The notes beneath the pieces are model-generated. The model made no database searches and was not told where the DNA came from. It worked only from the letters and a program-made list of their open reading frames with translations. This document shows, piece by piece, positions 397 to 25,425 of a DNA stretch of 39,887 nucleotides. Position 1 is the stretch's first letter. The number at the start of each line of letters is the position of its first letter. The translations under genes and the position numbers were made by a program. The DNA comes from Clostridia bacterium (lineage in GTDB: Bacteria; Bacillota; Clostridia; Oscillospirales; Acutalibacteraceae): assembly GCA_017382015.1 (NCBI GenBank), contig JAFOBC010000313.1:1-39887 (forward strand). Direction: 5' to 3'.

Positions 397-2080
397 TACG
401 TATATTCAGGATTATCGCAAGGCTATCAGATCCGGTGAGATCGTTGCCGGGCGTGAGCTCATCGACGAGCTCGACAATCTGATCCGGGACATGGCTGATG
501 ATCGGTACATTTTCGACACTACAGACGCCGATCAGCGAATTGATTTCATGGAACACTGTATCAGGTTGACGAAAAGTCCGTTCTACGGAAAGCCGATGAA
601 GCTTCTGTTATGGCAGAAGGCATTCATTACAGCGGTTTACAGCTTTAAGATGGCCGACGAAACTTATATCGATCCTTCCGGGAGAGAAAAACACGTTGAC
701 CGGTTCAAGAAGTGTGTGCTTCTGATCGCACGTAAGAACGCCAAGTCGGAGACTTGCTCCGGACTGACACTGACAGAAGCAATTGTCGGAAATGAGGGTG
801 CGGATCTTGTCTGTTCGTCGAATGACGACACACAAGCGAATATTCTCTATGATGCTATCGACACAATGCGGCTCATGATCGACCCGGAACAGAAGGACAC
901 ATGGCGAAATCAGAAGTGGATCCGTATCAACGACACCAACAGCAAGATCTTCAAGATCTCTGACCGAACCCGAAACAAGGAAGGCCGAAACATCGACTTC
1001 TCTGTTATCGACGAGGTTCACGAAATGAAGGAAAACACGATCATCAAGTCAATTGAGCAGTCGCAGTCACTGAAGGACAATCCGAAACTGATAATCATCA
1101 CGACTGAAGGCTTCGTGAACGATGGCGCTCTTGATGAGATCCTTCGCCAGTGCCGGCGCGTGATCCGAGGTGAAGACGACGGAGCATCAGCTGAACGTCT
1201 TCTTCCCTGGTTATACACTCAGGACTCTGAGCAGGAGATCTGGGCGGACGAGAGAAGCTGGCAGAAAAGCAATCCTTCACTTGGAGTTATCAAAAAATAC
1301 ACGTACTTAAGAGAGCAGATCGACGCGGCAAGGAAAAGCACTGCGGACAGAGCCTTTGTTCTGAGCAAGGACTTCAATATCAAGCAGAACGCGGCGGCGG
1401 CATGGCTGCACATTGAAGACTATGCTTACAATGCAGAGTATGATCTTGAAGATTTCCGCGGATCTCTTATCCTGGGTGGCGTGGATATGTCCGAAACAAC
1501 GGACATGACTTCCGCAAGAGCACTTGTGATGAGAGCAGGAGACAAACTCAAGTACATCATCCAGCATTACTGGATTCCAGAGTCGAAGCTGACCAGTGCT
1601 GACGACCGTGAGGCCGGCGCAAAGTATAAAGAATGGGCGAAAGCCGGAATTCTGACTATCTGTGAGGGAAACGACATTGATCTCAGTCAGGTTGCCGACT
1701 GGTATTACATGCTTTACAAGCAGTACGGACTCAGGCTTTTCAAATGCGGTTATGATGTTAAGTTTTCAAAGGATTTCTTAAAGCGTATGGATGAATACGG
1801 ATTCGAATGCGAGCTCGTATATCAGAGCAAGCAAGTCCTGAGCAATGCGATGAAGCTTGTCGAAGCTGACTTCAAGGCTCAGCTGATTAATTATAACAAT
1901 AACGAAATCGACAAATGGTGCCTCGGAAACGCGGCGGTCGAAGTTGATAATGCCGGGAACTGTCAGGCGGTCAAGATCAAGGGACAGCCGGCGAAAAGAA
2001 TAGACGGTGCTGTTACATTCATCATCGCTTATGAAATATTCAGGCGATATCGAAGTGAATATATGCAGATGCTACGATAA
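389..2080 (+). CDS. terL: Terminase large subunit (ATPase/nuclease)
   Basis: 563 aa, full length for Terminase_1-type proteins. The ATPase domain shows a Walker A-like ARKNAKSE (residues 114-121) and Walker B VIDEVHE (206-212). The nuclease half begins around residue 360 with GGVDMSETTDMTS, an acidic RNase H-like metal site. The protein drives DNA into the prohead and cuts concatemers. It follows the small subunit with an 8-bp overlap and precedes the portal, the standard packaging order. Confidence 0.95.
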   Translation: MNNTYIQDYRKAIRSGEIVAGRELIDELDNLIRDMADDRYIFDTTDADQRIDFMEHCIRLTKSPFYGKPMKLLLWQKAFITAVYSFKMADETYIDPSGREKHVDRFKKCVLLIARKNAKSETCSGLTLTEAIVGNEGADLVCSSNDDTQANILYDAIDTMRLMIDPEQKDTWRNQKWIRINDTNSKIFKISDRTRNKEGRNIDFSVIDEVHEMKENTIIKSIEQSQSLKDNPKLIIITTEGFVNDGALDEILRQCRRVIRGEDDGASAERLLPWLYTQDSEQEIWADERSWQKSNPSLGVIKKYTYLREQIDAARKSTADRAFVLSKDFNIKQNAAAAWLHIEDYAYNAEYDLEDFRGSLILGGVDMSETTDMTSARALVMRAGDKLKYIIQHYWIPESKLTSADDREAGAKYKEWAKAGILTICEGNDIDLSQVADWYYMLYKQYGLRLFKCGYDVKFSKDFLKRMDEYGFECELVYQSKQVLSNAMKLVEADFKAQLINYNNNEIDKWCLGNAAVEVDNAGNCQAVKIKGQPAKRIDGAVTFIIAYEIFRRYRSEYMQMLR

Positions 2081-2092
2081 GGAGATGAGAAA

Positions 2093-3358
2093 TTGAAATG
2101 GTGGGATAACCTTTTTCGGAAAGCACCGAAAAACAACAAACAGGCGCTGACGCTTGATGGTTTCACTCCCTGGTATACACAGTTCGGAACTGACATATAT
2201 GCTTCCGACGTTGTGCAGCAGGCCTTGAAGTGCATCGTCGATGAGATCAAGAAGCTTAATCCGACGCACGTCAGAGTAAGTGGAGCTGATCCGTCACCAG
2301 TGCCGAAGAGCTCGATTCAGAAAATTCTTGATGAACCGAATCCACTTATGACAACAAGCGAATTCATCGAGAAGATGACATGGCTGCTTCTTCTGAATTA
2401 TAATGCATTCGTCGTTCCGACATACTACACATGGATCGACGACAAAACAGGAGCTGAACGCCGGTATTACACAGCGTTATATCCAATCAAGCCTTCACAG
2501 GTAGATTTCATCGAGGATGAAAGCGGAGCCTTATTCGTTCATTTCTACTTTCTGAACGGATATGACACAACAATCAGGTATTCAGATGTCATTCATCTTC
2601 GCTTCAACTACAGCGTCAATGAATACATGGGCGGCGACATGCTCGGACAGCCGAACCACAAGGCAATTCTTGAGACACTATCCCTGAATCATGATCTGTT
2701 GCAGGGTGTAGCGAAAGCCATGAAAGCTTCTTACGCTGTCAACGGCGTTGTCAAGTACAATACTTTGATTGACGATGGTAGCATGGATAAGAACCTGAAA
2801 GAACTCGAAAAGAAGCTGATGAACAACGAGTCCGGCTTCCTTCCAATGGACTTGAAGGCAGACTTCACGCCATTGGAGCGCAAGACAAATCTTGTTGACA
2901 AGCCGACGCTGGAATTCGTAGATTCAAAGATACTGCGAAACTGGGGCGTTCCTCTTTGCATTCTCACTGGAGACTACAACAAGGAGCAGTTCGAGGCATT
3001 CTATCAGAAAACGCTCGAACCTTTGATAATCGGCTTTTCGCAGGCCTTCACGAAAAAACTTTTCAGCGATCGTGAAAAAAGCCTGGGCAATGAGATCCGA
3101 TTCCTGCCTAAGGAACTGATATTCATGACCGTGAGTCAGACTCTCGAAATGATCAACATTCTGAGTCCGACTGGCGCTCTCTATGAGAACGAAAAGAGAA
3201 TTGCTCTCGGCTTGCGGCCATTGCCGGAGCTCGAAGGAAAGAGATATATGAGTCTTAACTGGATCGACGCGGAAAATGCGGCGCAATATCAGACTCCGCA
3301 GAATGTGAAGGTCGATGTTGTTGATGAATCCAAGACAGTGACAGACGAGGAGGTATAA
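2093..3358 (+). CDS. Portal protein, HK97 family
   Basis: 421 aa. The N-terminus (KWWDNLFRKAPK) and the segments YASDVVQQALKCIVDEIKK and GGDMLGQPNHKAILETL match HK97-type portals, which form the dodecameric DNA channel at the capsid vertex. The start is TTG at 2093 preceded by GGAG; the nearby ATG at 2098 is in another frame and stops at once. The prohead protease, which normally follows directly, is displaced by 5.7 kb by the DGR block. Confidence 0.92.
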   Translation: MKWWDNLFRKAPKNNKQALTLDGFTPWYTQFGTDIYASDVVQQALKCIVDEIKKLNPTHVRVSGADPSPVPKSSIQKILDEPNPLMTTSEFIEKMTWLLLLNYNAFVVPTYYTWIDDKTGAERRYYTALYPIKPSQVDFIEDESGALFVHFYFLNGYDTTIRYSDVIHLRFNYSVNEYMGGDMLGQPNHKAILETLSLNHDLLQGVAKAMKASYAVNGVVKYNTLIDDGSMDKNLKELEKKLMNNESGFLPMDLKADFTPLERKTNLVDKPTLEFVDSKILRNWGVPLCILTGDYNKEQFEAFYQKTLEPLIIGFSQAFTKKLFSDREKSLGNEIRFLPKELIFMTVSQTLEMINILSPTGALYENEKRIALGLRPLPELEGKRYMSLNWIDAENAAQYQTPQNVKVDVVDESKTVTDEEV

Positions 3359-3360
3359 GA

Positions 3361-3528
3361 ATGGTTACACTTAATGGAAATAGCGGAGATTACAAGTGTC
3401 TGTCAAGCGATACAAAGCCGACACTCACTGATACTCCGGGAGATAGAAACGTGATGCTCGTCGAGCTCGACACCGGCCTCGTTTTCTACTGGGACGGCGA
3501 AGAGTGGCAGAAGTTCGGAGGTGATTAA
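3361..3528 (+). CDS. Small virion-associated protein (hypothetical)
   Basis: 55 aa, starting with ATG two bases after the portal stop, with GACGAGGAGG as ribosome site inside the portal end. The C-terminus contains FYWDGEEWQKFGG, a Trp-rich segment like those in small proteins encoded just before phage fibres. It is followed three bases later by the fibre-like DGR target, so it may be a fibre adaptor; that role is inferred from position only. Confidence 0.7.
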   Translation: MVTLNGNSGDYKCLSSDTKPTLTDTPGDRNVMLVELDTGLVFYWDGEEWQKFGGD

Positions 3529-3531
3529 GTC

Positions 3532-5808
3532 ATGAACATTCTTGATATCGCAATTGCGAAACAGCTCGCCGGTGGCGGCGGATCCGGAACGGATAACTAC
3601 AATGAGCTTTCGAACCTTCCGAAGATTAACGGAACCACACTTTCCGGCGATAAATCTTCTTCTTCTCTCGGACTCCAGAGCGAGATCAAGGAAGGCGCTG
3701 AACTTGCATCAGATCTTGTTGACGACACGGGTCAGGACAACAAGTTCGTCACTTCTGCAGAAAAGCTTGAATGGAGTGGCAAGCAGAATCTGATTGACAG
3801 TTCTCACAAGCTCAGTTCTGATCTTGTGGACGACACCAACAAAACAAACAAGTTCGTCACATCAACAGAAAAGAACACATGGAACGCAAAGCAGAATGCA
3901 ATCGATGCAGATCACAAGCTGAGTTCAGATCTCGTTGACGACACCAACAAAACAAACAAGTTCGTCACATCAACAGAAAAGAACACATGGAACGCAAAGC
4001 AGAATGCAATTGATTCAGAGCATAAGCTTTCAAGTTCGTTAGTTAGATTTTCCGAGGCAGAGGCCGCAGCACTTGCATCAGGCATCAACAGCACCAAGGT
4101 CGGTCAGATCAGTACGAACCAAACAAATATTTTGTACGCCATTAATACGGGCGTGAAGAATTTTGCAAACGCACAAGCTCCGACTCAAGTAAAAACGGGA
4201 TTAATTGCAACCAATCTTGATAATGGAGCAGTAAAACTTAGCGCAACATCACAGTCATGGACAGCCTATTATATAGGAAACACCAAGGTATTACCAAACA
4301 CAGAATATGTAATAAGCGTATATGCTGATTCTATAACTAATGCTCCGAATTTCTGGTTTTCTGTTTTTGATACAGATACTACTGGTACAGTTTTAGTAAG
4401 CAATAAACGTATCACAAGCACTGGTGAAACTTCAGCAACATTCACATCTATCTCTGATACGCTTATCATTAACGTTTATCCTAATAATTCCGCTACAGCA
4501 TTAACTACAGATGTAACTATTCGTATAATGCTTTGTGCAAAAAGTGTTTACGATCAAGATCCATCATATCAGACATACGCCCTACCAAACTATGATTTGA
4601 CACGGATGGTTTCTGAGTTACAGAAAAAGGCTGTAAAAGTTTACACTTACCATGTTAATCCAAATGAAAGTGATCCGGAAGATGCTGTAACATATCTTGA
4701 TGATGCTACAGGATTAACGCCAGCTAAAATGAGTGCAAGCTCATTTAGTTATGGTTCGTGGGCTAATGCTTGGTTTTTACCACGTCCATGCGTACTTAAA
4801 TTCGATGGTACTGTAGATTACTACCTTAATCCAAATGATTACAGTAAGAAAACAGACGGTACAGCCTCGACTATAGATAGTTCCAACTCAACGGGAAATG
4901 TTATGCTTGAATTCCCTAAGATTTGGGTTAAACGTGTAAATGATGGTAACGGCGCAAGAACTGTTTCGATTGCTCCTGTAAATGTAGATGGAACTTACAA
5001 ATGTTGGAGTAATATAAATGCCGAAGATAAGGAAGTGGATCACTTCTATTTACCGGCATACAATGGTACTATTCATAGCAGTAAGATGCGTTCACTCTCA
5101 GGAGTAACTCTCAATAGCACATATGCTCCAAATTATACAAGAGCACAGGAAGTTACAGCTGCAACAGCTAATAACCCAACCGGAAAGAATATGTGGTATA
5201 CAGAAACATGGGCAGACATGTGCTTAGTATATGATTTACTCTATCTTATGGGTAAATCTCTTGATGTACAGAGAACATTCGGTCAGGGATTTTCAAGTGG
5301 TTCGGAAACTGATATGAGAGCGTATGTTACAGGTGCACACAATGCAAAAGGTTTGTTCTATGGTGATATATCAGGAACAAGTACAGCTGTTAAAGCCCTT
5401 GGTATGGAAAACCTTTGGGGTTGCCGATGGCATGCAGTTGCTGGTCTTATTAATGATAGTGGTACTCTCAAAGTTAAGATGACTTATGGTGTTGCTGACG
5501 GTAGTACTGCTGTCGGATATAATACAACAGGAAGCGGTTATCTTAATTACGGCTCAACTTATGGTACAGCTGGATATGTTAAGAAGATGCAAGCAGACAA
5601 TACGATGGGTTATAAAATCATTGAAACTGCGGGCACTGATGCGACATACTACTGTGACTATTACTATGCAAACAACAGTCAATCGAATTATGCCCTTTTG
5701 GGGGGTGCATCCGGCGATGACGCTTATTGTGGTTTCTGTGTCAGTCTGGGCCTTGGGGCTGCGCTTACGCATTGGAGTATTGGGGGCTCGCTCTCTTGCC
5801 GACCGTAG
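3532..5808 (+). CDS. DGR target: virion surface fibre/adhesin with variable C-type lectin-like domain
   Basis: 758 aa. The N-terminus (1-50) has a Gly-rich linker after a short helix. Residues about 55-165 form repeats of about 36 aa (LVDDTNKTNKFVTSTEK), as in tail-fibre shafts. A middle domain follows. The C-terminal 380 residues have a formylglycine-generating-enzyme/C-type-lectin-like fold signature (ALGMENLWGCRWHAVAGL near residue 625) ending in the variable region. The last 36 codons carry A-directed differences from the template repeat at 5931-6040, so the gene is the diversified target and probably binds host receptors. Composition changes near 4120: the anchor resembles the flanking genes, the rest is AT-rich. 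Lying between portal and protease it could be a head fibre rather than a tail fibre. Confidence 0.88.
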   Translation: MNILDIAIAKQLAGGGGSGTDNYNELSNLPKINGTTLSGDKSSSSLGLQSEIKEGAELASDLVDDTGQDNKFVTSAEKLEWSGKQNLIDSSHKLSSDLVDDTNKTNKFVTSTEKNTWNAKQNAIDADHKLSSDLVDDTNKTNKFVTSTEKNTWNAKQNAIDSEHKLSSSLVRFSEAEAAALASGINSTKVGQISTNQTNILYAINTGVKNFANAQAPTQVKTGLIATNLDNGAVKLSATSQSWTAYYIGNTKVLPNTEYVISVYADSITNAPNFWFSVFDTDTTGTVLVSNKRITSTGETSATFTSISDTLIINVYPNNSATALTTDVTIRIMLCAKSVYDQDPSYQTYALPNYDLTRMVSELQKKAVKVYTYHVNPNESDPEDAVTYLDDATGLTPAKMSASSFSYGSWANAWFLPRPCVLKFDGTVDYYLNPNDYSKKTDGTASTIDSSNSTGNVMLEFPKIWVKRVNDGNGARTVSIAPVNVDGTYKCWSNINAEDKEVDHFYLPAYNGTIHSSKMRSLSGVTLNSTYAPNYTRAQEVTAATANNPTGKNMWYTETWADMCLVYDLLYLMGKSLDVQRTFGQGFSSGSETDMRAYVTGAHNAKGLFYGDISGTSTAVKALGMENLWGCRWHAVAGLINDSGTLKVKMTYGVADGSTAVGYNTTGSGYLNYGSTYGTAGYVKKMQADNTMGYKIIETAGTDATYYCDYYYANNSQSNYALLGGASGDDAYCGFCVSLGLGAALTHWSIGGSLSCRP
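3805..4020 (+). repeat. Two near-identical 108-bp repeats in the fibre shaft
   Basis: Units at 3805-3912 and 3913-4020 each encode 36 aa beginning HKLSSDLVDDTNKTNK and ending NAID; a degenerate copy precedes them and a partial one (HKLSSSLV) follows. The DNA is almost identical between the two units, suggesting recent tandem duplication that would change shaft length. Confidence 0.9.
5689..5798 (+). repeat. DGR variable region (VR)
   Basis: It aligns without gaps to the template repeat 242 bp downstream. Over 5692-5798 there are 24 mismatches, 22 of them at template adenines; only two non-A changes occur (5703 T to G, 5709 C to A). Of 30 template adenines, 22 differ in VR. The reading frame is kept and the changes cluster in AAY codons. 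This is the hallmark of adenine mutagenesis followed by copying into the target gene. The stop codon lies 8 bp beyond the homology. Confidence 0.97.
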
Positions 5809-5827
5809 GGCGGCTAAGGAAAGAGGT

Positions 5828-5852
5828 TTGGAGAAAACGTAGTTGTCTCCAA
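5828..5852 (+). promoter_or_regulatory. Hairpin downstream of VR
   Basis: A 7-bp perfect inverted repeat, TTGGAGA (5828-5834) and TCTCCAA (5846-5852), with an 11-nt loop, starts 30 bp after the VR. In the Bordetella phage DGR a hairpin just downstream of VR is needed for efficient homing; the same role is inferred here from position. It has no T-tract, so it is a poor terminator candidate. Confidence 0.5.
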
Positions 5853-5930
5853 TAAAACCCTAAATTACGTAGCAACAAAAATTAAATTGAACAGAACAAA
5901 TATAATAATATATACAGGGTTTATCGAAGC

Positions 5931-6040
5931 AAAGCCCTTTTAGGTGGTAACTCCGACAATGACGCTAATTGTGGTTTCTATGTCAATCTGAACAATGAGG
6001 CTGCGAATACGAATTGGAATATTGAGGGCTCGCTAACTAA
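5931..6040 (+). repeat. DGR template repeat (TR)
   Basis: A 110-bp non-coding repeat on the same strand as target and reverse transcriptase. Read in the target frame it would encode an Asn-rich stretch with ten AAT/AAC codons (for example CGFYVNLNNEAANTNWNIEG), the codon bias expected of a template whose adenines are to be randomised. Homology to VR starts at 5931 or 5934 and ends at 6040. No start codon or ribosome site suggests it is translated. Confidence 0.96.
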
Positions 6041-6132
6041 TCCTTAACAAAAAGCTTATATAAAATATACGCTTCGTTAAATCCTCACCCCTTGGTGAAA
6101 TTTGCTTTCGACATACAACTGTTAGTAATTAT

Positions 6133-6180
6133 TATTTCTATTTCTTGGGTGGGTGCGTATGCACCTACTCTATAGAAATA
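6133..6180 (+). ncRNA. Structured DGR spacer RNA between TR and reverse transcriptase
   Basis: A long hairpin with outer arms TATTTCTAT (6133-6141) and ATAGAAATA (6172-6180), and an inner 8-bp stem GTGGGTGC (6149-6156)/GCACCTAC (6161-6168) closed by a GTAT tetraloop. In characterised DGRs the TR transcript extends into the spacer before the reverse transcriptase, and the structured spacer binds the enzyme and primes cDNA synthesis. The hairpin is seen directly; its role is inferred. Confidence 0.6.
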
Positions 6181-6213
6181 AATATGAAAGCGGTCAAGAA
6201 AGGATAAGAGAGA

Positions 6214-7278
6214 ATGAAATCTTATAAATACTTATGGGAAGAATTAATATCTGACGAAAACATCAGAGAAGCTGTGTATAACGCATCGCATGGTGCTGTC
6301 AGAGGAAAACGTCAAGCTATGCTTAGAGAAATCAACTACAATATCGAAGCTGAAATTCCTAAGATACGTGAAATGATAGAAAACTATACACCGGCACAGC
6401 ACACACCGATGATAATTAATGACGGTATCACTCAAAAGAAAAGAACAATAATTGTTCCGACTATAGGGGAACATATTACGCAACACGCTGTTATGCTGAT
6501 ACTTAAACCAATCTTTATGAAAGGTATGTATGAACACTCATACGCTTCCATTCCTGAACGTGGCTGTCACAACGGTGCAGCAAGAATGAAGAAATGGATA
6601 GAAGAAGGTGGCAGACATATCAAGTATTGTGGTAAATTCGATATAAGAAAATTCTTTGAAAATATAGATCAGGATGTTCTTATTGATAAGCTGCAAAGTA
6701 TCATTAAAGACGATAAATTCATGGACTTGCTTATTAAAATAATCCGTACTACAGACAGTGGTTTACCATTAGGATTCTACACTTCACAATGGTTTGCCAA
6801 TTTCTACTTACAGGATTTCGATCACTACGTAAAAGAAAATCTTGGAGTTAAATACTATATGCGTTATATGGACGATATGGTTATATTCGGCTCTAACAAG
6901 AAAGAACTTCGTAAAGATAAAGACCTGATGCTTGAATTTCTACAGGAACGGCTTCATGTGTGGTTTAAAGACAATTGGCAGATATTTAGATTCGACACCA
7001 AAGAGCATAAAGGACGGTTTCTTGATTTTATGGGCTTTAGATTTTACCGAGATCACACTACTATGAGAAGATCTATAGCACGTAAGGCTATGAAATTAGC
7101 ATATAAACTCAGTAAGAAAGAGACTATAACAGTAGAAGATGCTCGAAGGATGCTTGCTTATTACGGATGGATAAAACATACAGATTCATATTTGTTCGTT
7201 CAGAAGTATATTGACCCATATGTTAATTTTGAAAAGTTGAAAAAGATTATATCCGAAGATAGCAAAGGGAGGGCTTAA
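6214..7278 (+). CDS. DGR reverse transcriptase
   Basis: 354 aa, the usual DGR reverse transcriptase length. Motifs: FDIRKFFENI with a catalytic Asp (142-151); GLPLGFYTSQWFANFYL (183-199), whose GxxxSQ form distinguishes DGR enzymes from group II intron and retron enzymes; and catalytic YMDD (218-221). No maturase, protease or endonuclease domain. It makes error-prone cDNA from the template-repeat RNA, misincorporating opposite adenines. Start is ATG 6214 with an AAAGGA site. Its stop overlaps the next ATG, so the genes are coupled. Confidence 0.97.
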   Translation: MKSYKYLWEELISDENIREAVYNASHGAVRGKRQAMLREINYNIEAEIPKIREMIENYTPAQHTPMIINDGITQKKRTIIVPTIGEHITQHAVMLILKPIFMKGMYEHSYASIPERGCHNGAARMKKWIEEGGRHIKYCGKFDIRKFFENIDQDVLIDKLQSIIKDDKFMDLLIKIIRTTDSGLPLGFYTSQWFANFYLQDFDHYVKENLGVKYYMRYMDDMVIFGSNKKELRKDKDLMLEFLQERLHVWFKDNWQIFRFDTKEHKGRFLDFMGFRFYRDHTTMRRSIARKAMKLAYKLSKKETITVEDARRMLAYYGWIKHTDSYLFVQKYIDPYVNFEKLKKIISEDSKGRA

Positions 7279-7544
7279 TGATGTGGAAAAAAGGCACAAG
7301 TACAGAGATACTTCCTGCAATTGATGATACATCATCTGCAACATATGTATATCTGTATAGGAATTTTGCAGAAAAGCAGAGAGAAACGGATAACGGTGAC
7401 TCTGAAACATACTATGAATACGAATATGCAAAGATCAAGAAAGACGTATATGAGTATGTAAAGGAACTTTGGGCAACGGAGGACAGAACAGCAGAGATTG
7501 AAGATGTCCTTGCTGAGTTACTTTTCGGAGGTGACGAAGAATGA
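7278..7544 (+). CDS. Small acidic protein after DGR reverse transcriptase
   Basis: 88 aa, strongly acidic, rich in Tyr and Glu, with YVYLYRNFAEK then YYEYEYAKIKKDVYEYVKE. This pattern resembles small proteins encoded after fibre genes in Clostridia phages. It does not look like Avd, which is a basic four-helix protein of about 120 aa. ATG 7278 overlaps the reverse transcriptase stop; ATG 7281 is better spaced from the GGGAGGG site at 7267-7273. It may be a fibre-assembly chaperone or a non-standard DGR accessory protein; neither is proven. Confidence 0.75.
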   Translation: MMWKKGTSTEILPAIDDTSSATYVYLYRNFAEKQRETDNGDSETYYEYEYAKIKKDVYEYVKELWATEDRTAEIEDVLAELLFGGDEE

Positions 7545-7687
7545 GTAATGCAAAGTTGAAACTCATGGTGTCAGTATTCAGAAGAAGAATGGCTGAAGGA
7601 GAAACTTTCGAGGAAATCGCAAGAAGCTATCCGAAGCTGACAGCTGTTGACATAGCAGACATTGAAGAAGCTTTAAGAGCTGAATAA
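7541..7687 (+). CDS. 48-aa helical protein (hypothetical)
   Basis: The start ATG overlaps the previous stop (ATGA), with a GGAGGTGA ribosome site at 7528-7535. The sequence has a basic N-terminal helix (LKLMVSVFRRRMAEG) and a second helix containing EEIARSYPKLTAVDIADIEEAL. It is too short for Avd. Small helical proteins of this sort often close fibre modules in Firmicutes phages. Function unknown. Confidence 0.7.
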   Translation: MSNAKLKLMVSVFRRRMAEGETFEEIARSYPKLTAVDIADIEEALRAE

Positions 7688-7690
7688 CAA

Positions 7691-7789
7691 CCGTACCAAA
7701 AATTTATTTGGTTCGACAGAAGTTTGAACCACGATGAACCACAGTGAACCAAACTGAACCACGCAAACCGTACCAAAATTTAATTTGAT
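7691..7789 (+). repeat. Repeat cluster: four 10-bp TGAACC repeats between flanking direct repeats
   Basis: TGAACC occurs at 7725, 7735, 7745 and 7755, exactly 10 bp apart (core TGAACCAc). The array is bracketed by two copies of CCGTACCAAAAwTT (7691 and 7768). The left copy contains the palindrome ACCAAA-N6-TTTGGT (7695-7712). Helical phasing suggests a cooperatively bound protein site. It lies immediately before the radical SAM gene, so it may be an operator or a junction scar. Confidence 0.75.
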
Positions 7790-7791
7790 AG

Positions 7792-9006
7792 GTGAAAGGA
7801 TGTGAAAATATTACTATCGCTATTATTGATGCAGATTTAATAGGTAGGCAAAAACATAGATTTCCTAATTTAGTATGTGAAAAAATATCGGCTTATTATA
7901 AAGAAAAAGGTGCTGAAGTTCAGTTAAAACTTGATTATGATGACTTATCAGAATTTGATGAAGTATTTATAAGCAAAGTGTTTACTGATACCCCAGTACC
8001 AAAATGGATAACTGATGCTGTAAATATGGATTCAGGTGAAGTTGATCTTCCTGATAATATTCATGTTGGTGGTACTGGATTTTTCTTTGACCATGCACCT
8101 AACCTTCCCGAAGAAATCGAACATCATATGCCTGATTACCATCTTTATGATAAATGGATAGCTGATAAAGTTGATGCTGCGAAGAAAGAAGCACAAGATA
8201 CCAACAAACCATTCAACGAAAAATCTTTTATGGTTCAATTTAAAGGATATACAGATTATAGTATAGGATTTACAACAAGAGGTTGTTTTAGGAAATGCCC
8301 TTTTTGTGTAAATAAAAAATATGATAAAGTGTTCTGTCATAGTTCTTTAGCTGAATTTTATGATCCTTCACGAAAGAAAATCTGTTTACTGGATGATAAT
8401 ATCTTAGGCAGTCCGAAATGGAAAGAGATAATTCAAATGTTAATAGATACCGGAAAGCCTTTTATGTACAAACAAGGAATGGATGAAAGACTTCTTACTG
8501 ATGAAAAATGCGAATTATTATTTTCTGCCAAATATGACGGTGACTTTACTTTTGCCTTTGATAACATTGCAGACTATGATCTTATAGAGCGTAAACTACA
8601 AATGATACGAAGATATACAAATTCATTTAATATTAGGTTTTATGTTTTGGTAGGATTTGAGAGTACAGATGTTCAGGATATTATCAATATGTGGAAACGA
8701 ATAGAATTACTTATGAGATATAATTGTTTGCCATATATTATGAGGTTTCAAAATAAGAATGAAACACCATGGATGGATTCTGAATTTAGATGTTTATATA
8801 CCGCAGTAGCAAGATGGTGTAATCAACCTTCATTCTTTAAAAAGAAAAGTTTTCGAGAGTTTTGCGAAGCTGATCAAAAACTATATAAAACGGTTTGCTC
8901 ATCAATGAGGGCGTTAGTTGATTTTGAAAAGCAATATCCAAATATAGCAAAAGAATATTTTGATATTAAATTCACAGACTACAATTTAGGAATCAAGATT
9001 AACTAA
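7792..9006 (+). CDS. Radical SAM enzyme with B12-binding-like N-terminus
   Basis: 404 aa. The radical SAM iron-sulphur motif CxxxCxxC is GCFRKCPFC (Cys165, 169, 172). The N-terminal 100 residues (TIAIIDADLIG, HRFPNLVCEKISAYYKEKGAEV) resemble the Rossmann-like domain before radical SAM domains in cobalamin-dependent or MiaB-like families, without a clear cobalamin-binding DxHxxG. After the cluster, LLDDNILGS fits the second strand of the SAM barrel. Substrate unknown. The gene is very AT-rich: 17 of 60 bases at 8281-8340 are G/C, against 29 of 60 at 10321-10380. The start is uncertain: GTG 7792 lacks a good ribosome site, and GAAAGGA (7794-7800) would favour a non-standard ATT at 7810. Confidence 0.85.
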   Translation: MKGCENITIAIIDADLIGRQKHRFPNLVCEKISAYYKEKGAEVQLKLDYDDLSEFDEVFISKVFTDTPVPKWITDAVNMDSGEVDLPDNIHVGGTGFFFDHAPNLPEEIEHHMPDYHLYDKWIADKVDAAKKEAQDTNKPFNEKSFMVQFKGYTDYSIGFTTRGCFRKCPFCVNKKYDKVFCHSSLAEFYDPSRKKICLLDDNILGSPKWKEIIQMLIDTGKPFMYKQGMDERLLTDEKCELLFSAKYDGDFTFAFDNIADYDLIERKLQMIRRYTNSFNIRFYVLVGFESTDVQDIINMWKRIELLMRYNCLPYIMRFQNKNETPWMDSEFRCLYTAVARWCNQPSFFKKKSFREFCEADQKLYKTVCSSMRALVDFEKQYPNIAKEYFDIKFTDYNLGIKIN

Positions 9007-9083
9007 ACAAAATTTGATTTTGGTCGGGTACAAACATTAATAAACTGTGAATAACCAAATAACAAAATAAGGAAGTGAAAAAC

Positions 9084-9746
9084 TTGAAAAATAAAGAACT
9101 TGAAAGAAGATCTTACAGCTTCGAGGTTCGCGCTGAACAAGGTGAACGGGGAAGCAGGATCACGGGAAGGCCGATCGTCTACAATTCCAGAACTGATATT
9201 GCTGGACTGTTCGACGAGATCATCGAGGAAGGTGCTCTGAACGGCGCCGATCTGAGAGACGTTCGCTTCCTGGTCAATCATGATCTGTCAAAGATCCCTC
9301 TTGCACGATCAAGAAATAACAACGGGAATTCAACTATGCAGCTGAGAGTTGATTCAGCCGGCATGGAAATCGACGTTGATCTCGATACTGAGAACAACGC
9401 TGACGCTCGCGCTCTTTACTCTGCAGTATCACGCGGAGACATTACCGGCATGAGCTTCATGTTCAGCGTTGATGATGAAGAGTGGGAGAACATTGAGACC
9501 GATCATCCGACGCGAAGGATCAAGGCAATCAGTTCCGTCGTTGAAGTATCTGCAGTGACATTCCCTGCATATGCTGCAACTTCGATAAATGCACGAGGGG
9601 GAGAGGCACTGGAGAGTGCTAAGGCCGCACTGGAGAGTGCGAAGCAGCTGAGTGCAAGATCACTGGAAAGTGATAGTAAGAAAAATAAGAACCTTAAAGA
9701 ACTTGAGCTTTTAAAGCTCAAAATACAGATTTTAGGAGGAAAGTAA
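9084..9746 (+). CDS. Prohead maturation protease, HK97 family
   Basis: Family hallmarks: the His motif VNHDLSKIPLARS, the Ser motif DITGMSFMFSV, and the conserved VSAVTFPAYAAT. It trims capsid subunits during maturation. TTG at 9084 is chosen because AAGGAAG (9069-9075) lies 8 bp upstream; GTG at 9075 would sit on the ribosome site. Product 220 aa. The C-terminal 50 residues are a Ser/Leu/Lys-rich helix, possibly scaffold-like. It is followed two bases later by the capsid gene. Confidence 0.93.
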   Translation: MKNKELERRSYSFEVRAEQGERGSRITGRPIVYNSRTDIAGLFDEIIEEGALNGADLRDVRFLVNHDLSKIPLARSRNNNGNSTMQLRVDSAGMEIDVDLDTENNADARALYSAVSRGDITGMSFMFSVDDEEWENIETDHPTRRIKAISSVVEVSAVTFPAYAATSINARGGEALESAKAALESAKQLSARSLESDSKKNKNLKELELLKLKIQILGGK

Positions 9747-21635: not shown

Positions 21636-22355
21636 ATGATGAATCGAAGAAAATTCGTTGAAGAAGCAAAGAAAAGAGTCGGCAAGTCCGGCGAAGATCT
21701 CTTCAGGCGTTATCAGATCAGAACAGACTGGTGTCTGATGCAGGTCTATTATCTCGAACATGATATCTCTGGAATCACAGACGTTCCGATGAACTTCAGC
21801 TGTTCGGGGTTCATGAATACGGAATTTGCAAAGCAAAGAAAAAACAGAGAATTCAAGACTGCAGAGATCGGCGATATCGTCTTCTTTGAGCTCAACGGCA
21901 ACAGAGGCGACGGAGCTGATCATGTCGGAGTCGTAATTGAGAACACAGGACATTCGATCAAGCTCGTTGAAGGCAACGTTCAGGGAAATTCGAGCGGCAT
22001 ATGGTACGACACGTCAGTTTCCGACATCTACGAATACGACTATTACAACAGCTCATTAGACTGGATCATCGACATGTCCGAGTACTTCACTGACGAAGAA
22101 GAGTCTGAACAAGAGGATAAGGAGAATACATTCTCCGTTCAGATCCGCACGCTGCGGAAAGGCGACAAGGGAAACGACGTCAAAGCGCTTCAGCGTCTCC
22201 TCTATTCAGACGGGTATTCGTGCGGTCCATGTTCAGATGACGGAGACTTCGGTGAATGTACCGAAAGTGCTGTGATGGAATATCAATCCGTTCATAAGCT
22301 TGAAGTTGACGGAATAGTCGGAAAGCAGACATTCTCTGAAATGTGGAAAAAATAA
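21636..22355 (+). CDS. Endolysin: CHAP peptidase/amidase plus peptidoglycan-binding domain
   Basis: 239 aa with no signal peptide, so release depends on the holin. The N-terminal CHAP-type domain has catalytic Cys33 (DWCLMQ) and His96 (GADHVGVVIE), plus VEGNVQG. An acidic linker (about 148-160) precedes a PG_binding_1 domain: LRKGDKGNDVKALQRLL and DGIVGKQTFSEM. It cuts host peptidoglycan at lysis. It is the last late gene; the holin is across the circle at 37785. Confidence 0.92.
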   Translation: MMNRRKFVEEAKKRVGKSGEDLFRRYQIRTDWCLMQVYYLEHDISGITDVPMNFSCSGFMNTEFAKQRKNREFKTAEIGDIVFFELNGNRGDGADHVGVVIENTGHSIKLVEGNVQGNSSGIWYDTSVSDIYEYDYYNSSLDWIIDMSEYFTDEEESEQEDKENTFSVQIRTLRKGDKGNDVKALQRLLYSDGYSCGPCSDDGDFGECTESAVMEYQSVHKLEVDGIVGKQTFSEMWKK

Positions 22356-22410
22356 TTAATGATATTACCTATTTGTTTGACATAACTTTATAACCCTCCA
22401 TAACCGTGAA

Positions 22411-22442
22411 AAGCACCTTTGAAATTATCAGAGGCGCTTTTT
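22411..22442 (+). terminator. Terminator of the late operon
   Basis: Stem AAGCACCTTTGA (22411-22422)/TCAGAGGCGCTT (22428-22439) with a 5-nt loop and one A-C mismatch, followed by a T-run. It lies 56 bp after the endolysin stop. Confidence 0.82.
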
Positions 22443-22465
22443 GCTTTTGATCTTCACGACACAAA

Positions 22466-22727
22466 TGTCGGAAACATACCTGCATGATTTGCGTTCCGAC
22501 ATCAATTCCGACGTTTTTTCCGACAAATAACTTAATCAAACTTGATTTCTTTTAACTTCTATATTATCCCATAAAGAGTGAAAACCACGCAAACATCAAG
22601 AATGCGTGGTTTTATCGCCCGTGTAGGATCGAATTGGATCAGATAAGTTTGCTGTTTTATCTTTTAGAAACCACGCATTCACTGCAATTCAAGCCTTTAA
22701 AAAACCGTTTCCGACATTTTTCCGACA
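22466..22727 (+). other. Candidate attP: phased TTCCGACA arm-type sites around an inverted-repeat core
   Basis: TTCCGACA (or its complement) occurs six times: inverted at 22466, direct at 22494, 22506 (TTCCGACG) and 22518 with an exact 12-bp period, then direct at 22709 and 22720 with an 11-bp period. Between them is a core with AAAACCACGC (22581-22590) and GCGTGGTTTT (22604-22613) inverted around 13 bp. Tyrosine recombinase attP sites have short arm repeats flanking such a core. The integrase gene is 1.2 kb away rather than adjacent, which weakens the call. Confidence 0.55.
22581..22680 (+). other. Competing hairpins
   Basis: GCGTGGTTTT (22604-22613) can pair with AAAACCACGC upstream (22581-22590, 10 bp). 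Alternatively its longer form at 22600-22612 pairs over 13 perfect bases with AAACCACGCATTC at 22668-22680. The two are mutually exclusive. This may be an attenuator-like RNA switch or, as DNA, three recombinase half-sites. Confidence 0.6.
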
Positions 22728-22748
22728 TTTTTTTATAAAAAGAAGGCG

Positions 22749-22777
22749 TTGAAATTCAATTTTGATTATGGTATAAT
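22749..22777 (+). promoter_or_regulatory. Promoter of ncRNA unit R1
   Basis: TTGAAA (22749-22754), 17-bp spacer, TATAAT (22772-22777), with TG at the extended -10 position. No protein gene lies downstream on this strand before 25608. Confidence 0.88.
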
Positions 22778-22783
22778 ATCTCA

Positions 22784-23050
22784 TAGACAAGCTCGATTTA
22801 AGCGTTCTTTAAGTAAAATTGAGTGTGTCTGTCTGTTTTCGGGAAGAAAAGCGGCTTTTGTTCTGCACATGTTTAGTTTTTGAGTAGCTCAGAATTCCTT
22901 TTCTTCTCTTCTCTTGTTTTAATTTATTCAAAACAATAAAGGATCCGGACGGATCCCACCGGCTGTGCCGGGCGGCTTTGGCCGTGAGCTCGTCTTCCAG
23001 GTGAAGAAAGAGTTTCTGAAAGCGTCGTGTTTATCGCACGGCGCTTTTTG
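22784..23050 (+). ncRNA. Candidate structured ncRNA R1 (about 267 nt)
   Basis: It runs from about 7 bp past the promoter to the terminator at 23021-23049. No plausible reading frame with a ribosome site. Internal stems include GGATCC-GGAC-GGATCC (around 22940), CCGGC-TGT-GCCGG, CGGC-TTT-GGCCG, TCTTC-CAGGT-GAAGA, and AAAAGC with GCTTTT near 22845. It is the first of six units. Function unknown; it is not recognised as a known RNA family. Confidence 0.7.
23021..23049 (+). terminator. Terminator of R1
   Basis: AGCGTCGTG (23021-23029)/CACGGCGCT (23037-23045), one G-U pair, then a T-run. The -35 element of the next unit begins 3 bp later. Confidence 0.88.
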
Positions 23051-23051
23051 C

Positions 23052-23080
23052 TTGCGCAGAAAAAACTTTTGTGTTAAAAT
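23052..23080 (+). promoter_or_regulatory. Promoter of ncRNA unit R2
   Basis: TTGCGC (23052-23057), 17 bp, TAAAAT (23075-23080), with an extended-10 TG. It abuts the R1 terminator tail. Confidence 0.85.
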
Positions 23081-23086
23081 ATAAAC

Positions 23087-23225
23087 GTGGCGGTTCGGGA
23101 GAGATATTCTTGAACTTCATTTGAGTCTGCCTTTCATCAAACCTTGAACATATCTCATAATCATGCAGGCAGACGATCCTTTCACAAAAAGACTGCGCTC
23201 CTTGACCTTGCTGCAGTCTTTTTGT
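23087..23225 (+). ncRNA. Candidate ncRNA R2 (about 139 nt)
   Basis: It lies between the TTGCGC/TAAAAT promoter and an 11-bp terminator stem. It contains GTCTGCC (23126-23132) and GGCAGAC (23168-23174), which pair over 7 bp around an inner loop. No convincing coding capacity. It shares promoter design with its neighbours but little primary sequence. Confidence 0.7.
23186..23225 (+). terminator. Terminator of R2
   Basis: AAAAAGACTGC (23186-23196)/GCAGTCTTTTT (23213-23223), 11 perfect pairs ending in the T-run. Confidence 0.92.
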
Positions 23226-23254
23226 TTGCGCAGAAAAAGGATATGTGATATAAT
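23226..23254 (+). promoter_or_regulatory. Promoter of ncRNA unit R3
   Basis: TTGCGC (23226-23231), 17 bp, TATAAT (23249-23254), with TGA at the extended -10. It starts directly after the R2 terminator stem. Confidence 0.9.
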
Positions 23255-23260
23255 TTAATT

Positions 23261-23331
23261 GACGTAAACCCCTTACGTCAACCAGCAGATTATGATCTAC
23301 AGCAAAGAAGTCGCTTTTGGCGGCTTTTTTG
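23261..23331 (+). ncRNA. Candidate ncRNA R3 (about 70 nt)
   Basis: The shortest unit: essentially a 5' hairpin TTGACGTAA (23259-23267)/TTACGTCAA (23273-23281), a linker of about 27 nt, and the terminator hairpin. The linker is too short to code for anything and is the likely exposed, pairing-competent part. Confidence 0.7.
23309..23330 (+). terminator. Terminator of R3
   Basis: AGTCGC (23309-23314)/GCGGCT (23320-23325) with a 5-nt loop and six T residues. Confidence 0.85.
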
Positions 23332-23332
23332 C

Positions 23333-23361
23333 TTGCGCGAAAAAAATGCCCGTGCTATAAT
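23333..23361 (+). promoter_or_regulatory. Promoter of ncRNA unit R4
   Basis: TTGCGC (23333-23338), 17 bp, TATAAT (23356-23361), with TGC at the extended -10. It begins 3 bp after the R3 T-run. Confidence 0.9.
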
Positions 23362-23367
23362 AAGAAC

Positions 23368-23656
23368 AATGAACGCGTTTTCTGGTGGCGTTCAACAATT
23401 GAATTCAAATCTTTGAACATTGTCCGCAAGGACAGCGCACGGCGGCGCGTTGGTTCAGGTTCTGACGTGTCGCTCTGGATCTTCGGATCCTAAAAATTTT
23501 TAGGGTGGTTCCCTATTTTCTTTTAGCACATGCCCTTGTCGGGCGGCAGGGGCTATCTTCTGAAATCCATTTATTTTGCGAGAGTACAAAACTCCTTGGT
23601 TGAATTTTTTAACGACTTACAGGAAACGTCACATTAAAAAAATGTGGCGTTTTCTG
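23368..23656 (+). ncRNA. Candidate structured ncRNA R4 (about 289 nt)
   Basis: The longest and most ornate unit. Stems seen: TGAACGC/GCGTTCA near the 5' end; TGTCC-GCAA-GGACA (23421-23434) with a GNRA tetraloop; GGATC-TTCG-GATCC (23477-23490) with a UUCG tetraloop; the palindrome CCTAAAAATTTTTAGG just after; GCCC-TTGTC-GGGC near 23533. Tetraloops of both stable classes argue for a folded RNA. It carries AATTCAAATCTT (23402-23413), also present in R7. The only ATG frame (14 codons) has no ribosome site. Confidence 0.75.
23624..23656 (+). terminator. Terminator of R4
   Basis: AAACGTCACATT (23624-23635)/AATGTGGCGTTT (23641-23652), 12 pairs including one G-T, with a T-run. Confidence 0.92.
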
Positions 23657-23657
23657 T

Positions 23658-23686
23658 TTGCATAGAAATCTGAGATATGATATAAT
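23658..23686 (+). promoter_or_regulatory. Promoter of ncRNA unit R5
   Basis: TTGCAT (23658-23663), 17 bp, TATAAT (23681-23686), with an extended-10 TG. It directly follows the R4 terminator. Confidence 0.9.
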
Positions 23687-23692
23687 TGATCT

Positions 23693-23835
23693 TGCGGATG
23701 GTACGTCGTGATGCAAGTGCAGCAAGCAGATCGACACTATGACCAGAAGGCACAATTCAATAAGACGACTCGTGGGGAGTCGAAGTTCTGAAAACTACAG
23801 AAGCGGTCTTATCTTAACGGATAAGGCCGTTTTTG
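23693..23835 (+). ncRNA. Candidate ncRNA R5 (about 143 nt)
   Basis: It contains a CGACTC/GAGTCG stem (around 23765-23782) and a strong terminator hairpin at the end. No reading frame with initiation signals. Same promoter and terminator design as R1-R4. Confidence 0.7.
23803..23834 (+). terminator. Terminator of R5
   Basis: GCGGTCTTATC (23803-23813)/GATAAGGCCGT (23820-23830), one mismatch or G-T pair, then a T-run. Confidence 0.9.
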
Positions 23836-23853
23836 TGTTCCAGTGAAAAAAGA

Positions 23854-23897
23854 TGGTGTTGAATGATACACCCATTTTGAATAGAATTAGAGTTAAC
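23854..23897 (+). promoter_or_regulatory. Promoter-like element A, shared with 37712-37755
   Basis: TGGTGTTGAATGATACAC (23854-23871), identical to 37712-37729, followed at the same 38-bp offset by GTTAAC (23892-23897). It contains TTGAAT (23859-23864), 17 bp, TAGAAT (23882-23887). It fires toward the 3' end of the convergent integrase gene. Confidence 0.75.
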
Positions 23898-23984
23898 CAA
23901 AATCAAATCTTTGGTTCTCCTTTTGAAAAAAAGTATTAAGCAGCGATCAAGACCGGATTATACCTATTCATTCCGGTCTTTTTC
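23894..23984 (+). ncRNA. Candidate short RNA R6, convergent with the integrase gene
   Basis: About 90 nt from element A to the hairpin at 23949-23980. It contains the stem AACCAAA/TTTGGTT (around 23895-23916), and its last 21 nt are complementary to the end of the integrase message. It may be a sib-like or antisense regulator; that is inference. Confidence 0.5.
23949..23983. terminator. Bidirectional terminator shared by R6 and integrase
   Basis: AAGACCGGA (23949-23957)/TCCGGTCTT (23972-23980) with T-runs usable on the plus strand. The left arm lies beyond the integrase stop; the right arm is inside its last codons. Confidence 0.75.
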
Positions 23985-25079
23985 GTTATCGTTACCGTTT
24001 GCGTTACTTATTCCGAGCATGTTTTTGATTTTCTGAATGTCCGGGTGTCCGTAGACCTGCTTGAGCATCTGAAGATCAGACCAGCCCATTTCTTCAGCAA
24101 TGGCGTAAAGGTTCCGATCCTGCTCGACCCATAGCGTGGCTCTTGTGTGCCGGAGCTCATGCGGATTAATTATCTCGATCTCATAACCGTAATTGTCAAC
24201 TATGTAATTCTGAGCGGCCTGCATGAATTTCGCGTATACCTGCCATCGCCAACGCTGCGGATCATAAGGTGATTCAGGATCATCAGCATGGATCAGATAC
24301 CGGAACGACGGATCACAGTTCTTCCGGATGAGCTCAACCGTCTCGGAAGAGATTGCAATTACACGCTTTCGGTGCTTGTTTTTCGGGTCGTTGACGTCGA
24401 GGTTGCCGCCGATCTTAGTGACAGCACGTTCTATTCTGATGGTGCCTTCCTCAAAGTTCACGTCGTTGTACTGCATTCCGAGAGTTTCGGAAATCGTCGT
24501 CCCATAGCTTAACATGAGATGCACGCTCAATCCTTCAGCTCGTCGCAAGGTGTATTCAAGAATAGCGTCAGCTTCTTCCTGCGTGTAGACCCGGCGTTCC
24601 TTTGCCTTGTTTTTTACCTTGTAATGAATTCCGGCACACGGATTGACCGAGAGCCATCCGTTCTCGACAGCATACTTGAAGACGGAAGCAAGGAACGAAT
24701 GAAGATCTTTCAGATAGTTCTCTGTGTACTTCTCGGACATCGCATTCAGGACATCCGATACATCTCGTTTCGTAACGGAAACGATTTTTCGATCGCCGAG
24801 TGCTTCAATCGTTTTCCTGAGTAACGTTTTCATGCGATACACGGAATTAGGCCGCAGATAGCTTTCTTTTTCTTTCATGTAAGCTTCAGCAAGATCCTTA
24901 TACGTGACATTATACGCCGGATCCTTTGCCTGTCGTCCGTTCTCAATCAGATACTCTTCAGCCTTGGCTTTCGCTTCACGCTTGCTCTTGCCGTAGAAGC
25001 TTTTCCGGATCGGCGATCCGTCGAGGCTCTTGCCGACGGTGATCTTCACTTCATAGCGACATCCAGTGTTATTCTTCAT
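23964..25079 (-). CDS. int: Tyrosine-recombinase integrase
   Basis: 371 aa from ATG 25079, chosen because the longer frame would run into the repressor and AAAGGCGAA precedes this ATG. An N-terminal Arm-DNA-binding domain (about 1-55), a core-binding SAM-like domain (about 60-150) and a catalytic domain. Catalytic residues seen: Lys in the NPKNKHRKR loop, HELRH (His307, Arg310), Trp in MGWSD replacing the usual His, and Tyr343 in VYGHPD. The first catalytic Arg, normally in TGLRISE or GISRSE, is absent: the segment reads GTTISE (193-198). The gene overlaps the repressor end by 11 bp, forming a lysogeny operon. Confidence 0.93.
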   Translation of the reverse strand: MKNNTGCRYEVKITVGKSLDGSPIRKSFYGKSKREAKAKAEEYLIENGRQAKDPAYNVTYKDLAEAYMKEKESYLRPNSVYRMKTLLRKTIEALGDRKIVSVTKRDVSDVLNAMSEKYTENYLKDLHSFLASVFKYAVENGWLSVNPCAGIHYKVKNKAKERRVYTQEEADAILEYTLRRAEGLSVHLMLSYGTTISETLGMQYNDVNFEEGTIRIERAVTKIGGNLDVNDPKNKHRKRVIAISSETVELIRKNCDPSFRYLIHADDPESPYDPQRWRWQVYAKFMQAAQNYIVDNYGYEIEIINPHELRHTRATLWVEQDRNLYAIAEEMGWSDLQMLKQVYGHPDIQKIKNMLGISNANGNDNEKDRNE

Positions 25080-25425
25080 GTGCTTCGCCTTTACCAAGAA
25101 TGAAGACCTGAACTTCAAGCTTTTCTTTTTCAGTAAGTTTGTTCATGTATGTTTTCCATACAAGATCGTTGTTGAACAGGTTTTGATTCTCAATCGGAAC
25201 TTTTCCGGCTTCCAGTTGAACGTAATTTTCCGTAATTCCGTAAAGTTCAGATATTGAAACCTGAAGACATTTTGCGATTAGCGGAATTTTATCTGCCGTA
25301 GGATAGGCGTTTCGATGTTTCCATCCTGAAATTGCAGAAGTAGAAATTCCGGTTTCCTGCGAAAGCGTTGTCTGCGAAATATGTTTCTTTTCCATGATTG
25401 AAAAGATTCTCTGTGTTATTGTCAT
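25069..25425 (-). CDS. CI-like repressor, XRE-family HTH
   Basis: 118 aa. HTH at residues 15-50: SQTTLSQETGISTSAISGWKH. The C-terminal part is helical and charged, with no LexA-type peptidase, so inactivation would need an antirepressor or another signal. It faces the rightward early genes, with operator-like CGCT/AGCG sites between. It is co-transcribed with the integrase; the stop overlaps the integrase start. AGAGGA ribosome site. Confidence 0.88.
   Translation of the reverse strand: MTITQRIFSIMEKKHISQTTLSQETGISTSAISGWKHRNAYPTADKIPLIAKCLQVSISELYGITENYVQLEAGKVPIENQNLFNNDLVWKTYMNKLTEKEKLEVQVFILGKGEAHEE

Follow-up and report, generated by a model that had tools for sequence, protein, structure and literature searches.

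What fills the 1.6 kb between the last late gene of a temperate phage and its convergent integrase, where no gene for a protein is evident? The question is raised by contig JAFOBC010000313.1 of the Clostridia bacterium assembly GCA_017382015.1, analysed over its full 39,887 bases (the window; contig C288 of a 399-contig metagenome-assembled genome, 92.9% complete with 6.4% contamination), which by its gene content looks like a temperate tailed phage. Between the ends of the endolysin (22355) and integrase (23964) genes no open reading frame (ORF) of at least 60 amino acids (aa) lies wholly inside, on either strand, as the first-pass annotation had stated, and five tandem non-coding units, all co-directional on the forward strand, occupy the gap. 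Judged from its motifs and its relatives, this array (array A) is probably one of RNA morons, non-coding cassettes each with a promoter and a terminator, and its first unit holds a 37-nt hairpin, the core, common to many phages.

The promoters, found by motif scan, have exact 17-bp spacers and TG-extended −10 elements, all at the sequences given for them earlier: TTGAAA-17-TATAAT for A1 (22749–22777), TTGCGC-17-TAAAAT for A2 (23052–23080, adjoining the A1 terminator), TTGCGC-17-TATAAT for both A3 (23226–23254) and A4 (23333–23361), and TTGCAT-17-TATAAT for A5 (23658–23686). Under a strict rule, set after the sites had been seen (TTG, 16–18 nt ending in TGn, then TAnnnT, at least 8 of 12 matches), they are five of five forward-strand matches in the whole 39.9-kb window, the reverse strand having three (25589, 27056 and 27528); within the interval 22356–23963 the null mean was 0.07, and five matches were reached in 0 of 2000 Markov resamples. 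A looser, unbiased promoter scan, run over both strands of 3.5 kb, gave 6 sites where 5.3 were expected, and since this is chance level, −35 and −10 matches alone prove nothing. That result speaks for a neutral spacer in which promoters and terminators arose by chance, a reading made extremely improbable by the strict promoters and by the conservation in relatives and covariation described below.

Terminator-like sites are enriched in the region (11 against 3.3 expected), with stem ends at 23045, 23221, 23326 and 23649, immediately ahead of promoters 2–5. Four of the five −35 boxes begin 5–9 nt past the end of a terminator stem, so that the claim of a −35 element close behind each preceding terminator holds for these four and fails for A1, whose upstream hairpin (22406–22444, forward strand, by terminator scan) lies 3' of the endolysin gene, belongs to the late operon and is about 300 nt away. 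The terminator–promoter joints of array A have a common sequence (TTTTTGCTTGC...); the earlier remark that primary sequences differ is right for the unit bodies and wrong for these joints. Each of the five units carries, as motifs, its own sigma-70-type promoter and intrinsic terminator, as expected of a moron. A sixth unit had been proposed (R6, 23859–23984, forward strand) and was rejected: its promoter at 23859 (TTGAAT/TAGAAT, 9/12, no TG) is weak and at chance level, with a terminator-like stem at 23950–23979, leaving five of the six units claimed.

With the inferred +1 as 5' end and the T tract as 3' end, the predicted RNAs measure 267, 138, 71, 290 and 144 nt, in agreement with the anticipated range of about 70–290 nt, and all five fold better than shuffles (z −5.9, −3.5, −5.9, −5.6 and −4.3, terminators included and contributing), in keeping with the many internal stems reported; UUCG and GCAA loops, the latter of the GNRA type, are visible by eye. 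Unit A1 (22784–23050, about 267 nt, ends inferred) consists of a UC-rich stretch followed by a structured 3' domain of four hairpins and a terminator (22934–23052). The predicted RNAs of the other units are A2 (23087–23224), A3 (23261–23331; a 5' hairpin with a CCCC loop, then a terminator), A4 (23368–23657), which has a 12-bp stem-loop at 23442–23473, and A5 (23693–23836; terminator stem 23803–23830). When ORFs of at least 20 aa were listed, no type I toxin-like hydrophobic ORF was conspicuous on an unsystematic inspection by eye.

Are the units kept elsewhere? Endolysins homologous to that of the window are encoded on two more contigs of its genome, C373 (78% identity) and C374 (74%), and behind them lie arrays B and C. 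All three arrays have unit 1 with the A1 3' domain; unit 2 keeps its promoter and leader while its body is replaced; A3 corresponds to B4/C4, and A4 to B5/C5. Array C has one additional terminator–promoter joint, where array B instead has a tRNA-like insertion (by eye). A further case is the 40.7-kb viral genome IMGVR_UViG_3300031998_000285 (array D), where the endolysin adjoins the integrase and three extended −10 promoters stand in the slot, along with a pair of back-to-back non-coding units and one small ORF. The four arrays differ in unit content, the variable presence that is expected of morons, and the claim of independently promoted non-coding units in a lysis–lysogeny junction of a temperate phage is borne out in the window and in its relatives. 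In array D, the shorter one, the space between RNA units on the reverse strand of locus L154 (about 7380–7700) is taken by a small ORF that by eye resembles a helix-turn-helix protein and appears to be a protein cassette in the same slot.

The terminase search gave 15 IMG/VR loci, in six of which array-A DNA had short weak matches (best E 0.017), and further sequence was taken from five. The endolysin profile found seven viral loci, namely D, L168–L170 and three weaker ones (L171–L173), and the tail-protein search four, namely D and L164–L166, of which L164 and L165 have no promoters of the array type. Wider searches yielded no further array: beyond its own genome, array-A DNA had only 20–41-nt matches in four genomes among 60 relatives, and array-C DNA matched 6 of 398 family genomes, the five foreign ones over 25–53 nt only. 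The endolysin, searched against 198 relatives at E≤1e-20, was found in its own genome alone, and scans of genome contigs found no relative. A search of viral contigs for the joint pattern gave 71 stretches, ranked by promoter clustering; the six inspected (L065, L020, L070, L068, L009 and L078) had no compact cluster like that of the window, and the three GC-rich matches to the pattern GAGCTCGTCTTCC..., which lacked such promoters, were taken as chance. Two of the inspected IMG/VR contigs, L065 and L009, have many similar extended −10 promoters scattered along them, in L065 mostly followed by a common motif such as TTTGGCGCC.

The best-conserved portion of A1 is its final 119 nt (22934–23052). 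A covariance model of this domain, built from the A, B and C copies, found a fourth copy in phage D, elsewhere in the genome (L155:6111–6231, 73.8 bits, E 2.7e-18), with the ORFs behind a reverse transcriptase gene on one side and the prohead protease gene on the other. In the four-sequence alignment, which was fitted to its model and is biased toward structure, 98.1% of cells are paired and double changes occur in 15 of the 40 pairs; 0 of 500 shuffles did as well, and structures slid along the alignment had at most two doubly changed pairs. The first-pass annotation had staked its reading on compensatory changes in homologues, and in this domain they are present; on this comparative evidence the A1 3' domain is a covarying structured RNA. 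The entire domain also occurs in the Ruminococcus albus plasmid pRUMAL01 (68.2 bits), where the full domain begins at 2942, just behind a TTGATT-17-TATTAT site that ends at 2940. Weak matches to the domain models R1 (E≤0.01 in 19 of 394 genomes of the order) and R2 (E≤0.001 in 4 of 398 genomes of the family), the own genome included in both, were not accepted; among these, in the loci searched for it, the core was present only in the own genome, G621 and G104.

It is the 37-nt core within this domain (22983–23019; 51.5 bits with model R3, of which it is itself a member) that spreads furthest. An outer stem CUC/GAG, a small internal loop, an inner stem CUAC/GUAG and a loop CAUGU make up the hairpin, with the terminator following. 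In viral contigs the core pattern gave seven stretches, all scoring with model R2, one being the phage D copy and four near-identical (L189, L193, L194 and L195). With one core copy as query, BLAST matched 24 records of phages (16 of Bacillus, most of them SPbeta/phi3T type by name, 6 of P1/P7, 1 of Vibrio and 1 of Geobacillus) and 70 of plasmids, 67 of the latter from Escherichia coli or Salmonella (where listed, a 24-nt match), the other three being two from Bacillus and pRUMAL01; the P1 copy added weak matches (E 0.2–0.8) in Streptococcus Javan423/425 and Mammaliicoccus phages. Aligned over 15 copies, with L189, L193, L195 and further near-identical records left out, the core is 96.0% paired, with double changes in 5 of 10 pairs and 0 of 500 shuffles as good. 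Not its shape alone but also its bases are the same in phages of Bacillota as in P1 and a phage of Vibrio.

Model R3 matched 18 times in 45 loci, each match being a model sequence or a near copy of one, and in 2 of 398 phylum genomes, the own genome and G1051. Sequences outside the model score 36.2 (G1051), 32.1 (Javan423) and 32.8 bits (the Mammaliicoccus phage phi116). Such rarity in genomes fits, as expected, a phage-borne element. Folded singly, the core hairpin forms in G1051 and L192, and partly only in G104 and P1. No Rfam 15 family reached its gathering score over the core or the array in the window and loci scanned, L194 standing for its near copies L189, L193 and L195, and this is also the outcome of the scan of the units that had been proposed as a check. 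A micro-ORF within the core (AUG UGU AGA ...) was considered, and a core peptide was rejected because the frame is not kept: by eye, the L192 copy stops after three codons and the window copy has no AUG. In the Geobacillus phage PT9.1 two core copies lie 130 nt apart (L204:2868–3034), flanked by arpU and a DNA methyltransferase gene, one of them with the innermost outer-stem pair changed on both sides.

The neighbourhoods of the core bear on what it might do. Among 18 copies, a set that excludes R. albus and was searched without a chance control, a promoter-like site (score 9–12) ends 1–2 nt ahead of the model start in three, those of P1, G104 and G1051; as the promoter directly precedes the core, the predicted RNA would there comprise little beyond core and terminator. 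A hairpin before a T-rich stretch lies within 70 nt of the core in 17 of the 18 (a simple scan, not all of terminator quality). In L192 the core has endolysin/holin-like genes on one side and a convergent integrase on the other, the same setting as that of the window (ORFs by eye), and in P1, where it starts at about 52,975 on the minus strand of AF234172, it stands between the convergent pmgF and rlfB. These positions, with the hairpins, could be taken to mean that the array shields the integrase and repressor region from late transcription, as a barrier of successive terminators, one of which the core would regulate. This is decidedly unlikely: a barrier is contradicted by five strong promoters aimed at the integrase, promoter–core–terminator copies exist, and no terminator was found after the Vibrio copy.

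Could the units instead be what is left of tRNA genes? The core abuts tRNA-Lys in L191 (tRNA 4881–4973, core model from 4972) and tRNA-Ala in Javan423 (tRNA 1410–1501, core model from 1499). A tRNA-Trp lies about 0.85 kb from the core in L193–L195, tRNAs and a drum RNA 0.7–1.1 kb downstream of it in phi116, and an Rfam tRNA match about 330 nt upstream of it in the Vibrio phage; these proximities have no background rate beside them, and in the remaining loci given to ARAGORN no tRNA was called. In phi116 the tRNA-Asn, drum RNA (77.1 bits), tRNA-Tyr and tRNA-Pro stand in series (L211:2250–2645), downstream of the core at 1496. Within the arrays, C2 folds into a cloverleaf with three arms (z −3.6), and B2 has a cloverleaf as its minimum free energy fold; the C2/B2 consensus has double changes in 5 of 16 pairs. 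Just ahead of the domain, B1 has a tRNA-Sec-like stretch scoring 27.2 bits, below the gathering score of 47. The A4 stem-loop aligns with a minihelix of arrays B and C that is like an acceptor plus T arm; across A4, B5 and C5, 11 of 11 counted pairs are kept, one by double change, B5 and C5 being identical in their stem letters, so that the comparison is of two sequences, and one further position is A–C in B and C.

On these observations one could see in the array a decaying phage tRNA island, with units derived from tRNA genes, the core as a 3' trailer that aids tRNA processing or termination, and the other RNAs as relics. We consider this rather unlikely. ARAGORN found no tRNA in the window or in loci L001–L003, and the tRNA model had no array match at its gathering score; the fold of the B1 stretch is not better than that of its shuffles (z −0.95), the centroid fold of B2 departs from the cloverleaf, and the C2/B2 consensus lacks a D-like arm. 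For the P1, G104, G1051 and R. albus copies the sequence fetched around the core contains no tRNA, and decay would not preserve covarying stems and consensus promoters. Compared with tRNA and tRNA-Sec (RF00005 and RF01852), the array has cloverleaf-like and minihelix-like folds, and the core abuts true tRNAs in two phages; the array folds differ in scoring below gathering thresholds, in drawing no ARAGORN call and in having no normal anticodon arm (by eye). Mimicry of tRNA by array units is a suggestive idea. As a separate candidate, a phage attachment site (attP) within a tRNA was disfavoured: array DNA in the own genome matches only the three phage contigs C288, C373 and C374, so that no long copy of a host tRNA end underlies the T-arm-like pieces.

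A different use of the RNAs would be base pairing, in which C-rich loops and UC-rich stretches block the ribosome-binding sites of phage or host mRNAs. The CCCC-loop hairpin is common to A3 and C4; by eye, B4 has CCCC at the matching place and the UC-rich stretch is common to A1 and C1. AAGGGG occurs at several phage start sites, that of the endolysin included; for A5, the best of 57 targets was the endolysin start, weakly (−6.0 kcal/mol). The energies are modest, the simple search, which covered 57 gene starts of the phage itself and had no shuffled control, gave no coherent target, and once accessibility was included the endolysin start fell outside the six best targets of A3, leaving control of it by A3 unsupported. 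This explanation is accordingly an improbable one, and the earlier suggestions of host mRNA interference, packaging or lysis control found no positive evidence among those 57 starts, host mRNAs being outside the search.

Taken whole, the preferred explanation, an array of RNA morons whose core acts in trans on a host factor, is in our judgement somewhat better than evenly favoured. The sequence itself shows the promoter and terminator motifs, the covariation, the relatives and the turnover of cassettes; that RNAs are made, act in trans and meet a protein partner is what we infer from it. Host housekeeping RNA polymerase would read each unit from its own extended −10 promoter, and each transcript would be stopped by its own terminator. 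A lysogen may make all unit RNAs while the late genes are silent, and this constitutive transcription by host polymerase, itself conjectural, would imply a role in lysogeny. Units are gained, lost and swapped as cassettes, the joints being fused terminator and −35 sequences. The A1 core would act in trans as a decoy or ligand of a host factor that is conserved from phylum to phylum. Its partner is most likely a protein or another host component of that kind, because both sides of the core stem keep their sequence across phyla while the rest changes, and we hold this identification tentatively.

Several observations pull the other way. Arrays A, B and C all come from the one metagenome-assembled genome with its 6.4% contamination, and B and C run to contig edges, so that their integrase side is unseen. 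Array DNA matched none of 50,697 phage records, and the endolysin relatives L168–L170 have neither an array nor an integrase relative in the fetched flanks. As for the core, 14 of the 18 copies have no good promoter directly ahead, and in the lowest-energy fold of the single sequence neither the core of R. albus nor the outer stem of P1 appears.

How new is such an arrangement? The first-pass annotation knew of no described phage system of this kind, which is too broad, as small RNAs (sRNAs) at moron sites of prophages are known; it stands in so far as no such tandem array was found described. In one report, lambdoid prophages of E. coli O157:H7 carry sRNAs at a moron site (EcOnc01/AgvB and others), one of which acts on a host sRNA (PMC4104026). 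As in the array, these are short RNAs at an insertion-tolerant site of temperate phages, but they are convergent and lie downstream of the Q-controlled PR' promoter (PMC4104026), in contrast to five co-directional units with fused terminator/promoter joints; the likeness is one of layout. The Pas sRNAs of pathogenic E. coli prophages are likewise terminator-ended, some near tRNA matches and other structured RNAs, much as tRNAs and structured RNAs stand near some core copies; there they adjoin capsid or tail genes, and multiple copies stem from repeated acquisition rather than tandem duplication (PMC13192938).

Two known families are neighbours of the core without matching it or the array in the Rfam scans: DUF3800-VIII RNA (RF03075) in phi3T, about 90 nt downstream of the core in a 0.7-kb non-coding gap (L202:2998–3188), and drum RNA (RF02958), about 0.8 kb downstream of the phi116 core. 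No description of the core hairpin or of the tandem array was found in the literature searched, where a published but uncurated account may exist. RNA at moron sites is thus already known, and the tandem array is a variant of it; the core family is undescribed as far as Rfam 15 and that literature show.

The setting of the array is that of a tailed-phage gene complement, with terminase, portal (ORF 2093), prohead protease, major capsid, tape measure, tail and endolysin genes, and by inference the relatives of this phage infect Bacillota. Assigned by protein-domain match, the endolysin (CHAP-like plus PG_binding_1; 21636–22355, forward) is the final gene ahead of the array, and past it on the opposite strand lie the convergent integrase (Phage_integrase family; 23964–25118) and a CI/Cro-like repressor (25069–25425). 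Within the structural genes, a reverse transcriptase is encoded at 6214–7278 (forward; Pfam RVT_1, 61.9 bits; generic PADLOC reverse transcriptase matches), with a small ORF (7278–7544) directly behind it. It is possibly part of a diversity-generating retroelement; a simple repeat script found no template/variable repeat at 2000–9200 of the window. Next after the portal gene, a 758-aa ORF (3532–5808) has 108-bp tandem repeats at about 3720–4070.

Phage effectors have been looked for mainly among proteins, and this locus would be a modular battery of non-coding cassettes. In the broadest form of the proposal, which is possible but speculative, a small RNA spread among phages of several phyla keeps its 37-nt helix-loop-helix with hardly a letter changed because it captures a host component common to Bacillota and Pseudomonadota, and the present lineage has built around it a tandem, constitutive battery of effectors that includes tRNA-mimicking RNAs. 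As the core is present in P1 and phi3T, both of them model phages, its function is directly testable there, and if it does bind a conserved host factor, phages would have in it a tool of a new kind for controlling the host or countering its defences.

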